Assembly: GCA_947462875.1 (NCBI GenBank)
Contig: CANHQJ010000006.1
Span: 124,001 to 188,000, forward strand
Reading direction: 5' to 3'
Length of the DNA stretch: 64,000 nt
Source of the DNA: Verrucomicrobiia bacterium
GTDB lineage: Bacteria > Verrucomicrobiota > Verrucomicrobiia > Verrucomicrobiales > Akkermansiaceae
Both the position numbers and the translations under genes were made by a program. This document shows positions 29,731 to 34,024 of the stretch, one piece after another (position 1 is the first letter of the stretch; each line of letters begins with the position of its first letter). The notes under the pieces were generated by a model, which saw only the letters and a list, made by a program, of their open reading frames with translations, was not told the origin of the DNA and did not search any database.

Positions 29731-29800
29731 AAAAATCTGATTCGCTTCTTTGCCGAATTGTGCGACAATTCCGCGTCGTGGGAGTTTTACTTTAGTGCAT

Positions 29801-31396
29801 ATGGAAACGGATACGCGAAATCTCTTGTTGGCAGGTGGTCTTGTCACTGCGATTGCCGCGGGCTGGTTGCTCGGACGATCGCCGTGGGATGACGTCGCGC
29901 CACCAGTGAAAGACAAAGCGGTGGTCAGCGAACCATTCGTGGCGCGCGAGTGGGGGAATACCACGTCGTCCAAGCCGCGTAAGGCGGGTTTCCGCCCGGA
30001 CGAAGATGCCATACAGAACGGAGCTCTGCCTGGTCAACGCACCTTGCGTTTTGCGTCCGCAGAGGATCTGGCGAAATTTCTCGCAAGGGCGGGCGACCGG
30101 GTACGCGTCATGGACCGCATGGACGCGCTTCACGCGCTGCGCATCAGCTTTCTCGATCCCTCCGATCTATCGGATTTGCTCGATGGTAGCGAGGAAATGG
30201 GTTTCATTTTCCCTGCCTACACCCCGAACCCCACCGGCGGCATGGTGCAGGATGATGCGGTTCCGCTTGGCAACAAATTGTGGGAATGGCTGGGCCTGAA
30301 CGCCGCGGATCTGACGCTCGGCAAGGGCGTGAAGATCGCCATTCTCGATACGGGCGTGGTCCCGCATCCCGCCTACGGCGATGTGAAAAATGTTTTCATC
30401 GTGCCGGGCATGGAGAATTATCTCGACTGGAATGGTCACGGTACGGCGGCGGCTTCACTGATCCTCGGAAACAGCGCCACGGTTCCGGGCGCGGCACCGG
30501 GGGCGAGCCTTACCTCCTGGCGCGTGGCCGATGACAGCGGCGCGTCCGATAGCTGGAAAATCGCCCAGGCGATCGTCCAGGCGGCCGATGCGGGCAACCA
30601 AATCATTTCCATCTCGATGGGTTCGTATGGCGACAGCGTCATGCTGCGTGATGCCGTGCTCTACGCGCAAAACAAAAACATCGTCGTCATCGCATCGAGC
30701 GGCAATGATGGCTATGCGCAGTCTGCCTATCCCGCAGGCTATCCGAACGTGATCGCGGCCGTGGGGCTGGACGCGCAGAACAATCACCTGCTGTTTTCCA
30801 ATCAGGCGACCAATGCGGCCTTGGCCGCACCGGGGTGGGGCGTGACGGCGGCCTATCCGGGCGATCGAGTTACCTCCTTTTCCGGCACCAGTGCCTCCGC
30901 GCCGATTCTGGCAGGAACGGTCGCCGCTGTGATGTCGGCGAAAAACCTCAGCGCGCAGCAGGCTGTGGCTGCGATTTATCAATACACCAACGAAGCGGGT
31001 GCCGCCGGGCACGATACCTATACCGGAGCGGGCGCGGTCAATCTCGGGCGCATCCTGCAAAGTGAGACCTCGAACATCATGGACGCCGCCGCTGCTTCGA
31101 ATTTCATCACGCCTCCCGTGCCAGGCTCGGTGGCACAGGTGCAGGTGAACATTCAAAACCAAGGCACGGCCACGCTCAGCAATGTGCCTGTCACGGTCAC
31201 GACGCCTTCCGGGGTCACCCAGCTCACAGTCTCCTCGCTCGCCCCCGGCGCCGTGAAAAGCTACACGATCGGCCTCTCAAACTCGCTCTTTGCCAATGGC
31301 AAGTCGGTGAACGTCACCACCCAAATCGGCAGTCAGGATGCGGTTTCTTTTAACAACTACCGCTCCACCACCTACACGCCGCCACCAGCGCCCTGA
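29801..31396 (+). CDS. Membrane-anchored or secreted subtilisin-like serine protease (S8)
   Basis: 531 residues from ATG 29801. An N-terminal hydrophobic segment (residues 7-24) is followed by a pro-like region and a subtilase domain with the complete catalytic set: Asp183 in KIAILDTGVV, His213 in WNGHGTAAAS, Asn302 in ASSGNDG and Ser364 in SFSGTSASAPILAG. The last 100 residues (VAQVQVNIQNQGTATLSNVPVTV and PGAVKSYTIGL) form a CARDB/APHP-like beta-sandwich typical of cell-surface proteins. Probably degrades extracellular proteins. It ends in a 14-base palindrome over the stop (31390-31403). It is followed by the AT-rich cassette region. Confidence 0.9.
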   Translation: METDTRNLLLAGGLVTAIAAGWLLGRSPWDDVAPPVKDKAVVSEPFVAREWGNTTSSKPRKAGFRPDEDAIQNGALPGQRTLRFASAEDLAKFLARAGDRVRVMDRMDALHALRISFLDPSDLSDLLDGSEEMGFIFPAYTPNPTGGMVQDDAVPLGNKLWEWLGLNAADLTLGKGVKIAILDTGVVPHPAYGDVKNVFIVPGMENYLDWNGHGTAAASLILGNSATVPGAAPGASLTSWRVADDSGASDSWKIAQAIVQAADAGNQIISISMGSYGDSVMLRDAVLYAQNKNIVVIASSGNDGYAQSAYPAGYPNVIAAVGLDAQNNHLLFSNQATNAALAAPGWGVTAAYPGDRVTSFSGTSASAPILAGTVAAVMSAKNLSAQQAVAAIYQYTNEAGAAGHDTYTGAGAVNLGRILQSETSNIMDAAAASNFITPPVPGSVAQVQVNIQNQGTATLSNVPVTVTTPSGVTQLTVSSLAPGAVKSYTIGLSNSLFANGKSVNVTTQIGSQDAVSFNNYRSTTYTPPPAP

Positions 31397-31866
31397 TCAG
31401 GGCAGGGTATGGGTCCAGGGAAACGGGTTTTTAACTGGTTCACCTTCAAAACCAACCACTCCGCCTTTTTTCGCGAAATTTCGCGCCTTTCGCGGTTCAC
31501 CATCTTTCTCCCCGCGCCAACGGTGCAAAACACGCTAGCCCAGCGGCAAGGCCCTGGGAAAACGCCCCCCACAAACGCAAGCACTGAAAGTGCGCGACTC
31601 CTTGTGCTCCCTCGGAAATGTTTTACAAAAGAAAACGGAAAAACAACAACGCCCCCTCCATCGCAATCGAGTGCCAAGAAAACCATCAAAATTCCACCAA
31701 ATAACTGTTAGATAAATACATCCTAACTATCAATTAACCCAAAATGCCGAGAAAAATCCATCATTCATGAAAGTCGTTGAAAATCAATTGTTTTGAAAGC
31801 GCATAAAAAGAAGATTGCCATTTTCAGCGGGTATCATATCATGGCTACCTGAACTAATAAATACAA
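31397..31866. other. Intergenic region between the subtilase gene and the cassette pair
   Basis: About 470 bases without a believable gene. The first 300 bases hold a small minus-strand frame (31372-31689) of poor quality; from about 31680 the composition turns clearly AT-rich. Near 31707-31713 there is a GTTAGAT box like the one opening the second cassette, and at 31815-31842 a promoter-like pair directed at the cassettes. No integrase gene or recognisable attI was found. Confidence 0.5.
31815..31842 (+). promoter_or_regulatory. Candidate cassette promoter
   Basis: TTGCCA (31815-31820) and TATCAT (31837-31842) are 16 bases apart and end 36 bases before the first cassette ORF. It could drive both cassette genes, as Pc does in integrons, but no attI or intI accompanies it. 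Confidence 0.4.
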
Positions 31867-32374
31867 TTCGCTAAGAAATGGAAACTCCTTCAGAACTCTC
31901 ACTTGGTCAGCGCACCAAATGTCTGGTGGACGCATGTCAGGTAGTTTGCGTTCCGGACTGCTGCGGCATCGGAGCGTATTACTTTTCGCCGCTTTACACC
32001 GCTGCTTATCTTAGCCGCTACACTGGGACGGTATCGAAGGATGACGTCCAGACGATTTCAGACGAACTTGATGCACTGGTAGCGGAAGCTTCATCTCTCA
32101 GCCCCAATTCTGATGGACTCGTTTGTTCCATTTCAGGGATGAACCAGTATTTCACAGCGGACTCCATTCGCGAATTCGTCGATGACATAAAACGTAGTAT
32201 GAGTCTAGCTCCCAAAGTTGTTGAATTCGCCGACCGCCTAGTGAATGAAGAAAGCGAACAAGCCGCGTCATGACAACCACTACCAGCCGCCCTGTTTCGA
32301 TGCTTTACCGTGACTACAACCCTAACCCCGTGATCGACGTGCGCTCTCGCTGGTAGTGGTGCATGCGCTCATCG
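31867..32374 (+). mobile_element. Integron-type gene cassette 1
   Basis: The unit starts with TTCGCT, eleven bases before the ORF start, and ends with an attC-like site whose R'' box AGCGAAC is the exact complement of GTTCGCT. The expected G before the first TT is replaced by A (31866). The next unit begins at 32375, after the G of G|TTAGAT. The short leader, single ORF and terminal imperfect palindrome are the plan of an integron cassette. Confidence 0.7.
31878..32273 (+). CDS. Cassette-borne hypothetical protein (possibly DUF6331-like)
   Basis: 131 residues. The N-terminal third contains a cysteine cluster (CLVDACQVVCVPDCCGIGAYYFSP) and the rest is acidic and helical (SDELDALVAEASSL, DSIREFVDDIKRSMSL). 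I have a weak impression of similarity to the DUF6331 family, which has a comparable CVxGCCGxxAxxFSP motif; this needs a profile search. No signal peptide. Codon use is AT-richer than the neighbours. The gene lies wholly inside cassette 1, and its last codons overlap the R'' end of the attC-like site. Confidence 0.7.
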   Translation: METPSELSLGQRTKCLVDACQVVCVPDCCGIGAYYFSPLYTAAYLSRYTGTVSKDDVQTISDELDALVAEASSLSPNSDGLVCSISGMNQYFTADSIREFVDDIKRSMSLAPKVVEFADRLVNEESEQAAS

Positions 32375-32380
32375 TTAGAT
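32253..32380 (+). repeat. attC-like recombination site of cassette 1
   Basis: Left side in order: R'' AGCGAAC (32253-32259), spacer AAGCC, GCG, one extrahelical T, CATG, extrahelical ACA, then ACCACTACCAGC (32276-32287). Right side: GCTGGTAGTGGT (32349-32360), G, CATG, CGC, spacer TCATC (32369-32373), R' GTTAGAT (32374-32380). The arms pair except for the two 5-base spacers facing each other and the bases bulging on one side, which is the architecture integron integrase recognises. The 61-base loop is the variable terminal part. Confidence 0.75.
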
Positions 32381-32962
32381 AAAGAAAATGGACTGCCAAA
32401 TCAAGGACCTCACAAATACTATATTTGAAGCAATTCGGGCAACCAAAGCTCAGATTGATTCCAAATATGCGGGAAAGAAGCTCTTGGGTTACGCTCTTTG
32501 CACCGACGATGATGTGGTCGGTGTATATCACGTTGCCTGCACAGAAGACTGGGTTGATGAAAGGAAAGAACACTACAAAGAAATTGGATACATCAGTGTC
32601 GAGTGGGAACAGTCAGGTGATGACACACTGTTTGACTCATCTAATAAAATAATTCGAAACCACTACGATACTGTTAAAGAGAACTTTCCGACACGGCGTG
32701 ATGCTAGGTTTGAATGTTGTGTTTCCGCGTTAGAGAAGGCGAGAGCTGAAGGCGTTTTTGAAAATTACACTCATTTAAGCGTGGGCAGCACCGATCCGTG
32801 CGACCATTTAGAATTTTTAGAAACTAAGGGCATTGATAGAATGAACCCTCCTAAGCTAGCAGATGAACTAATCAAAGCCTTGGGATTCCATGAGTATCGC
32901 AATCAATGAATCATCTAACAAGTCGGCGTAGGTAAGGGCTAACGCCGCACCTGGCCTCATCG
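32375..32962 (+). mobile_element. Integron-type gene cassette 2
   Basis: The unit begins TTAGAT right after the G of the previous site, has a 13-base leader, one ORF, and ends with an attC-like site whose R'' box ATCTAAC is the exact complement of GTTAGAT. Its last base is the G at 32962; chromosomal sequence resumes with TTACGG, whose TTA is the stop codon (minus strand) of the parvulin gene. Confidence 0.75.
32388..32909 (+). CDS. Cassette-borne DUF4303-like protein
   Basis: 173 residues. The segment KKLLGYALCTDDDVVGVYHVACTEDWVDE followed by GYISVEWEQSGDD and FDSSNKIIRNHYD resembles DUF4303 proteins, a family of unknown function often found in mobile or polymorphic-toxin-immunity-like settings. 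No signal peptide, no membrane segment, no enzyme motif. Base composition is AT-richer than the flanking genes, in keeping with arrival on a cassette. ATG 32388 is fixed by the short cassette leader. Confidence 0.72.
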   Translation: MDCQIKDLTNTIFEAIRATKAQIDSKYAGKKLLGYALCTDDDVVGVYHVACTEDWVDERKEHYKEIGYISVEWEQSGDDTLFDSSNKIIRNHYDTVKENFPTRRDARFECCVSALEKARAEGVFENYTHLSVGSTDPCDHLEFLETKGIDRMNPPKLADELIKALGFHEYRNQ

Positions 32963-32968
32963 TTACGG
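32913..32968 (+). repeat. attC-like recombination site of cassette 2
   Basis: R'' ATCTAAC (32913-32919), spacer AAGTC, L'' GGC-GT-AGGT (32925-32933), loop, L' ACCT-G-GCC (32949-32956), spacer TCATC (32957-32961), then G|TTACGG. L'' and L' pair with two bases bulging on one side and one on the other. Total about 56 bases, the lower normal size for attC. Spacers match those of the first site (AAGYC and TCATC), so the two sites share a lineage. Confidence 0.75.
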
Positions 32969-34024
32969 CATGGCTTCCACGACGCTCAGATACGTGTGGA
33001 TGTGTTCTTTGTGGGTCTGACGAATCGCGAGGCGGATGTTTTGCAATGCTTCCGGGCGTTTTTGATCGGCCAAGGCGCGGCGGATTTCTTCTGTGCAGGC
33101 TTCGAGTGTGCGCGGCTGCACGGCCTTGCGATCGAGCACCTCGGCCAAATGCCAGCCGAGCTTGCTGCGGAAAACGGCGACTTGATTTTTCTGCATGGCA
33201 AACAAGGGCTCCGTGAAATCAGCTGGCAAACGGTCCTTGCGAATCCAGCCGAGTTGGCCTCCTTGTAGTTTGCTGCGTTCGTCCTCGCTGCTTTCTTTGG
33301 CGAGTTGTTCGAAGGTTTTTTCTTTTTTCTGCAGGGCTGCCAGCGCCTGTTCCGCGAGTGATTTCACCGCTTCGCTCTCCTTGCCGAGAGTTGCCCAGAA
33401 GACGTGCCGCACCTGAATCATTTCCGGTAGGGCTAGGGCTTCTAGGTATTTCTCATAAAAATCCTTCACCTCATCCTCGCTGACTTCCAGGAGAGGTTGC
33501 AGTTGGCGATCGATGTATTTTTCCATCTCGATCATCGCCGTCATGCGCAATCGCAGCTCCGCCTCACTGGCGATGCCCTGGGCTTGCATCGACTGCTCCA
33601 TATCGGTGCGCGAGACAAATCGTGCGAGCAACTGCTTGATCCGCTCGCTGATTTCCTCTTCGCTGGCCCGTGCGGCATCTTTGTTCGCTGCGATTTTCGA
33701 ACGAATCAACTGGTGATCCACCAGGTCAAAAAGCACCGCCTTACGCACCAGCGTGCGTTGCTCGGGAGTGGTGTCCTTCCAGGATTTTCCTTCCAACCAC
33801 AGGCGCTCGCGCGCGGCCCGCTCGACCTGAGCCGTGGTGACGGGACGCCCCAGCACCATCGCGGCGATGCCGTTTTTTTTCGCTTCCTCGATGAACTCGG
33901 GGCTATCGGATTTGCGGCGGTTGATCGCCTTGCGCAGTGGGCCGGCGAAGCCATACAAATCAAGAGCCACGTAAAGCAGCACGCCACAGTAAATGAGCAG
34001 TCTTGCGGTGAAGGAAATTTTCAT
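32963..34024 (-). CDS. Membrane-anchored parvulin-type peptidyl-prolyl isomerase (SurA/PpiC-like)
   Basis: 353 residues. One N-terminal membrane segment (RLLIYCGVLLYVALDLYGFAGPL), a long SurA-like helical chaperone region, and a C-terminal PpiC rotamase domain (about residues 205-305: IQVRHVFWAT, FEQLAKESSEDERSKLQGGQLGWIRKDRLPADFTEPLFAM and VFRSKLGWHLAEVLDRK). It helps fold exported proteins. The stop codon TAA is the first three bases after the cassette boundary. The downstream partner genes cutC and a phosphoesterase lie upstream in transcription order with 4-base overlaps, so it is the last gene of a three-gene operon. Confidence 0.88.
   Translation of the reverse strand: MKISFTARLLIYCGVLLYVALDLYGFAGPLRKAINRRKSDSPEFIEEAKKNGIAAMVLGRPVTTAQVERAARERLWLEGKSWKDTTPEQRTLVRKAVLFDLVDHQLIRSKIAANKDAARASEEEISERIKQLLARFVSRTDMEQSMQAQGIASEAELRLRMTAMIEMEKYIDRQLQPLLEVSEDEVKDFYEKYLEALALPEMIQVRHVFWATLGKESEAVKSLAEQALAALQKKEKTFEQLAKESSEDERSKLQGGQLGWIRKDRLPADFTEPLFAMQKNQVAVFRSKLGWHLAEVLDRKAVQPRTLEACTEEIRRALADQKRPEALQNIRLAIRQTHKEHIHTYLSVVEAMP

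Follow-up and report, generated by a model that had tools for sequence, protein, structure and literature searches.

A candidate integrase-less integron platform with an attI-type leader and two gene cassettes in an Akkermansiaceae genome

In a 64-kb stretch of DNA (hereafter the window) from a lake bacterium of the family Akkermansiaceae, we identified a locus that is very probably an integron platform without an integrase gene (intI). Judged from its sequence and that of its relatives, it opens with a diverged attI leader that carries a putative cassette promoter; two gene cassettes come next, each closed by an attC site, and the whole lies between two convergent genes. A broader reading, to which we give about even weight, is that of a distributed integron, in which a single trans-acting integrase (IntI) would serve about a dozen scattered attI platforms of two classes. 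These platforms would have their own promoters and be inherited in place, with cassettes turning over, in this genus and at least one other Akkermansiaceae genus.

Genomes are designated by G numbers (G000 is that of the window) and contigs by C numbers. Leaders of the window type are referred to as class C, and the attI kind that is linked to intI as class A. Three models were used: R1, built from aligned intI-linked attI sites; R2, built from three class C leaders (the window, G004:C28 and G004:C6); and R3, a covariance model of eight long attCs from other loci of the genus, with the window attC left out.

A two-cassette island between convergent genes

The features of the locus, in window coordinates, are:

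29750-31396, plus strand: S8 peptidase gene, left neighbour of the island
31397-32962, plus strand: island of 1,566 bases, from the S8 peptidase stop codon to the PPIase stop codon
31468-31643, plus strand: dispersed repeat, internal to the island and outside attI (79-84% copies at G000:C5, C11, C1, C25, C14 and others)
31673-31866, plus strand: attI leader, class C, diverged and intI-less (82% to G004:C28, 72% to G004:C6; model R2)
31815-31842, plus strand: cassette-promoter-like pair TTGCCA-16-TATCAT, 24 bp before the crossover (consensus scan and conservation)
31853-31866, plus strand: attI core ACTAATAAATACAA, best R1 match in the island; crossover A|TT at 31866/31867
31867-32374, plus strand: gene cassette 1, which starts TTCGCT (complementary R'' AGCGAAC)
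31878-32273, plus strand: ORF1, 131 aa, DUF6331 (PF19856; Pfam E 8.6e-10)
32253-32380, plus strand: attC1, 128 bp, genus-specific long attC type (R3 145 bits; 86% to a G004 attC)
32375-32962, plus strand: gene cassette 2, which starts TTAGAT (complementary R'' ATCTAAC)
32388-32909, plus strand: ORF2, 173 aa, DUF4303 (PF14136; Pfam E 7.5e-24)
32913-32968, plus strand: attC2, short attC (R3 15.7 bits, E 7e-4; spacer pattern)
32963-34024, minus strand: PpiC-type isomerase (PPIase) gene, right neighbour of the island

The S8 peptidase and PPIase genes that flank the island are convergent housekeeping genes. In the congener G006 they abut stop to stop, with zero intervening bases (...CCG TGA|TTA CGG...). 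A sequence-only reading of this DNA had named, as an outcome that would speak against cassettes, relatives carrying both ORFs and their flanks in a fixed chromosomal position; in G006 the flanking genes are present without the island. Compared with this empty site, the window has the TGA, then the island, then G|TTACGG, so that the right border falls on the attC2 crossover for IntI. For the left border the position is less certain: past the TGA, TCAGGGCAGG resembles the 3' end of the isomerase gene in G001. The PPIase stop codon overlaps the R' box of attC2 (32963-32968), its TAA being complementary to the TTA in G|TTACGG.

The two units within the island had been placed correctly, to within a few bases, by the sequence-only reading. 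Unit 1 begins A|TTCGCT at 31867, with R'' AGCGAAC at 32253-32259 and R' G|TTAGAT at 32374-32380; unit 2 begins TTAGAT at 32375, with R'' ATCTAAC at 32913-32919 and R' G|TTACGG at 32962-32968. An integrated cassette that was once closed as a circle has an R'' box complementary to its own first bases. Both units follow this rule exactly, at 6 of 6 bases (AGCGAA/TTCGCT and ATCTAA/TTAGAT), as had been noted earlier. The boxes AGCGAAC/TTCGCT deviate from RYYYAAC/GTTRRRY, a deviation common in this genus, and unit 1 is preceded by A|TT instead of G|TT. Cassette 2 lies between two G|TT crossovers and, from these borders, could still be excised. The stop codon of ORF1 is located inside attC1. No NCBIfam or PADLOC match was found for either ORF, and no plasmid match for ORF2.

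Both cassettes end in attC sites

The secondary structure captured by R3 comprises 20 pairs, 8 of them with compensatory changes. This model matched attC1 at 32253-32380 with 145 bits (E 1.4e-38). Over 123 bp, the same site shares 86% identity with the attC at the end of cassette 1 in a complete intI-attI integron of the congener G004 (C51). When 2.3 kb were searched with filters off, R3 also detected attC2, with a weaker score of 15.7 bits (E 7e-4). An independent attC model of the genus thus matches both sites, which bears out the earlier proposal that these are integron-type cassettes closed by attC.

Sequence support for attC2 is weaker than for attC1 and comes from the low R3 score, the exact R'' complement, the genus spacer AACAAGYCG and a single pattern match. 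The pattern in question, YAACAAGYC-N20-50-TCATCGTT, has attC2 as its single match in the 3.95-Mb genome, and the reversed pattern does not occur. This narrow pattern had suggested an isolated attC pair; the idea was rejected, as the pattern missed the long attCs of the genus. At E<=0.01, R3 has 19 matches in G000 and 3-95 across nine congeners, and chains of cassettes in which R'' complements the unit's own start were observed behind many attI sites of the genus. Many copies sharing the features of the window sites are thus present elsewhere.

A search of the window against Rfam at gathering thresholds returned two tRNAs only and no attC-like family. When sites were folded singly under DNA parameters, the z-scores were weak (-0.9 to -1.8) and uninformative either way. 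An unusually large cassette load was seen in G009 (9.4 Mb, 82% complete), with 95 attC model matches and 12 attI matches at E<0.01; its size suggests that it may be a mixed bin.

An intact integrase on another contig

A genome-wide search for intI, which had been recommended from the sequence alone, revealed an intact integrase gene on another contig of G000, an assembly of 39 contigs that is 97.7% complete. It was the one match above the TIGR02249 cut-off (340 bits, C1:351769-352716) and lies 0.7 kb from the contig end. The ORF is intact (436 aa) and has kept the C-terminal motifs of tyrosine recombinases (HALRHSFATHLL and LGHEDITTTEIY). Beyond the 5' end of this gene is the junction TACGAATAAATACTG|TTGTGC. 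C1 carries a complete integron, and its attI appears related to that of the window. Alignment of nine intI-linked sites gave the attI consensus GATAT-N19-AATAAATACTG|TT.

The attI leader of the window

The sequence-only reading had seen neither intI nor attI in the 64 kb. The former statement stands, with no credible IntI gene or remnant found in the 64-kb window; the latter does not, as an attI-type site, ACTAATAAATACAA|TTCGCT, immediately precedes unit 1. Over both strands of the 64 kb, AATAAATAC has a single occurrence. The best R1 match in the island falls on this junction and is weak (5.1 bits, E 0.07 in 1.6 kb), so assignment of the site to attI rests on the class C leader family.

The window leader is 82% identical to that of G004:C28, which occupies the same chromosomal place behind the S8 peptidase gene and ends AATACTG|TTGGCC, followed by cassettes other than those of the window. 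It is 72% identical to a second G004 site, C6. The top R1 match falls exactly at the junction in both (8.7 bits, E 0.005 in G004:C28; 9.8 bits, E 0.002 in G004:C6). With scores of 61 to 23 bits, R2 detected six more sites (G001:C10, G000:C22, G007:C18, G008:C25, G006:C36 and G006:C32); at five of them, R3 places an attC 0.4-0.7 kb downstream on the same strand. Outside the window, the class C leader therefore occurs at eight sites, seven in five congeners and one in G000. All nine leaders align end to end, with a ATAACTGTTAGA-like block on the left and ACTAATA..ACTG|TT on the right, and a second core, AACTG|TTAGA, is present at the left end of class C leaders. No IntI remnant was found at the nine aligned sites, the window included, and no intI-linked member of this leader family was found. 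The first cassette of G004:C6 (L058 4340-4945) looks, by eye, like a HigB/HigA-type toxin-antitoxin pair.

Each of the nine class C sites has the promoter-like pair TTGCCA-16-TATCAT or a variant, directed into the array and 22-24 bases before the crossover; these positions were read by script at eight sites, the junction of the ninth having been mis-picked by the script. This is the expected position of a cassette promoter. The consensus scan alone was not significant (2 found, 2.0 expected), and the weight of the pair comes from its conservation. The crossover reads ACAA|TT in the window and ACTG|TT at other sites, with CTG|T kept at the eight other class C sites. With the crossover G replaced by A, the window attI may be frozen.

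It could be argued that the locus is a plain CALIN, that is, a degraded or displaced attC cluster without attI, and that the upstream sequence is ordinary intergenic DNA. No intI lies nearby, the attI core scores weakly (5.1 bits) and is without the crossover G, and CALINs are common (PMC9024848). However, the upstream 190 bp belong to a family of nine leaders, most of which are directly followed by cassettes and attCs, and the promoter-like pair and the ACTG|TT end are conserved within this family. We therefore consider a plain CALIN unlikely. The term, proposed by the sequence-only reading, is apt insofar as two attCs occur without a nearby intI, but it under-describes a locus that has an attI leader and is one of about 12 platforms.

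Dispersed intI-less platforms

R1 detected seven strong attI sites in G000 (E<2e-5), one of which adjoins intI. The weaker sites C11, C14 and C9 also have attC model matches downstream. In total, G000 contains about 12 attI-plus-cassette platforms, and intI is absent from about 11 of the 12. The C1 and C7 leaders share 97% identity over 116 bp. Across ten genomes of the genus, R1 found 1-12 attI sites per genome at E<0.01. For at least 30 of 64 R1 sites, R3 places an attC on the same strand no more than 3 kb downstream; in the corresponding direction controls for the 64 sites, among the R3 matches listed, one lay upstream on the same strand and none on the opposite strand in either direction. 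Fragments of the intI 5' end were detected upstream of orphan attI at C13 (82 aa at 87%), C5, C28, G007:C4, G001:C23 and G001:C2; others had no such remnant.

The genomes used are almost all MAGs, and platforms are frequently found at the ends of contigs. Among public records, several MAGs of these Akkermansiaceae are labelled 'Akkermansia muciniphila', which is probably a naming artefact. Such data might reflect an assembly artefact, in which complete integrons were broken at repeats and intI was left on unassembled or unbinned pieces; the many attI sites near contig ends would fit this view. In contrast, the sites in the window, C7, C6b, C9, C11, C14 and C22 are contig-internal with resolved flanks, and the 5' side of attI, where intI is expected, is assembled and carries other genes. 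In addition, a complete single-contig genome of another genus (G067, 5.68 Mb) has two orphan attI sites (1281147 and 1951978), each over 300 kb away from the intI genes of this genome; another attI, at 3457223, adjoins intI. The orphan site at 1281147 heads an array of several attCs. With two orphan sites in a complete genome, assembly breakage is removed as a general explanation, and as an account of the platforms it is extremely unlikely: the artefact is refuted for the contig-internal sites. It is possible for six of the ten genus genomes, in which no IntI match was found at 1e-25, since in MAGs a lack of intI can mean a missing contig.

Cassette turnover at orthologous sites

Two pairs of orthologous orphan platforms, the window with G004:C28 and G000:C7 with G001:C14, contain different cassettes. 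One whole cassette of G000:C7 is 94% identical in DNA sequence to a cassette of G003:C301, and the match stops at the unit borders; two flank-marker proteins of G003 and G000 are only 53-66% identical. In sequence terms, this turnover and the 94% identical cassette look like marks of site-specific gain, loss and transfer of cassettes, and they lend indirect support to movement of whole cassettes by IntI. A G000:C7 cassette (L079 5226-5519) looks, by eye, like a RelE/ParE-type toxin.

Alternatively, IntI might have inserted the cassettes directly into a non-classical chromosomal target of the attG type, with no attI involved. Such insertion is known from Loot et al. 2024, as related in PMC12444791; the right border of the island falls on a G|TT crossover, and in G006 nothing separates the flanking genes. 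However, attG targets are short, degenerate sequences that would not account for a conserved leader of 190 bp, and at the orthologous place G004 carries this leader ahead of other cassettes. This explanation is very unlikely for the window cassettes. Insertion of this type may nevertheless have brought the first leader or array to this site.

Origin and use of the platforms

The reading that we prefer for the window, an attI platform lacking its own intI, implies the following events. Complete integrons most likely spread or were duplicated in the lineage. Orphan platforms would be complete integrons that lost intI and kept attI, promoter and array, and IntI from one locus, or an IntI acquired later, would work the remaining platforms in trans. 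The window cassettes would have been captured at the window attI by the present C1 IntI or an earlier one, through recombination between the attC bottom strand and double-stranded attI. Transcription of the cassettes would start from the TTGCCA-16-TATCAT pair. The presence in this lake bacterium of one IntI and about a dozen docking sites suggests that one enzyme serves many platforms. Published assays routinely place IntI and attI on separate plasmids (PMC9668308), so action in trans needs nothing enzymatically new.

The attI leader itself may have been mobile, as an ORF-less cassette with attI in the role of attC, inserted widely by IntI and loaded with cassettes later. Class A leaders start GGCG|TTCGTATATCAG and have the exact complement CTGATATACGAAC about 55 bp further on (e.g., L079 1900-2074), so that the 171-bp class A leader itself obeys the cassette rule. 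Three copies (C7, C8 and C6b) lose homology to the intI-bearing copies exactly at the left G|TT. The second AACTG|TTAGA core of class C leaders would fit as well, and fragments of attI1 act as cassette ends elsewhere (delta-attI cassettes, PMC12901181). However, the inverted repeat is inexact at C13 and missing from the G067 leaders, and several orphan sites retain intI remnants, which fits decay in place. On balance, we regard a mobile leader as doubtful. Within the distributed-integron reading, attI modules bounded on the left by G|TT cores may even have spread as ORF-less cassettes.

Relation to known integron systems

Descriptions of integrons assign one platform to each intI, and arrays without intI are filed as CALINs, i.e., degraded or moved attC clusters. 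The window platform resembles a chromosomal integron, such as the complete one at C1 of G000, in having an attI-type site, a promoter-like pair, cassettes and attCs that complement the unit's own start; unlike it, the window platform has no adjacent intI. As in CALINs, there are two attC sites and intI is found only elsewhere in the genome. However, the window has a 5' attI leader and a promoter-like pair, whereas CALINs are defined and searched without attI. IntegronFinder does not seek attI beyond class 1 (PMC9024848), so an attI ahead of a CALIN goes unseen.

Insertions at attG, in the account of Loot et al. 2024 given in PMC12444791, likewise scatter cassettes over the genome away from intI; the targets in that account are short and non-classical, whereas those observed here are long conserved attI modules of two classes. 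In delta-attI cassettes (PMC12901181), attI is also found outside its usual place next to intI and can be used by IntI. There, however, attI fragments replace attC at the cassette 3' end within a normal array, whereas the attI modules described here are complete and head arrays of their own elsewhere in the genome. Dissociation of intI and cassettes is also seen in In0 (intI without cassettes); the present case is the reverse, cassettes and attI without intI.

Integrons and CALINs, the latter also at several fixed positions, are known already, as are attG insertion and delta-attI cassettes. For dispersed intI-less attI platforms, no report was found in the literature searched, which covers few subscription journals, and their novelty is provisional. 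With attI recognisable by homology, many would-be CALINs of this genus appear as platforms headed by attI, conserved in position, furnished with promoter-like sequences and subject to cassette turnover. One can now test whether fixed-position CALINs elsewhere, such as those at seven Xanthomonas loci (PMC12444791), represent attI platforms on which an IntI acts in trans. If the distributed-integron reading is true, more first-position, expressed cassettes would be available per genome.

Sequences flanking the platforms

The repeat at 31468-31643 has at least 10 copies in G000 and further copies in congeners. At three platforms (the window, G000:C5 and G000:C11) a copy is found 0.2-0.5 kb upstream of attI, and another is near the attI of G003:C301. 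As a candidate for shared integron sequence it was ruled out, being a dispersed repeat with many unrelated copies.

No empty site could be derived for C6b, whose flanks are rearranged in all four relatives searched; its flanking genes are 26-46 kb apart in G001 and G006. In a sister species, the gene pairs that flank the window, C7 and C6b platforms of G000 are on different contigs (G004:C28, C10, C4, C22, C3 and C32). At these three loci (window, C7 and C6b), integron platforms coincide with synteny breaks.
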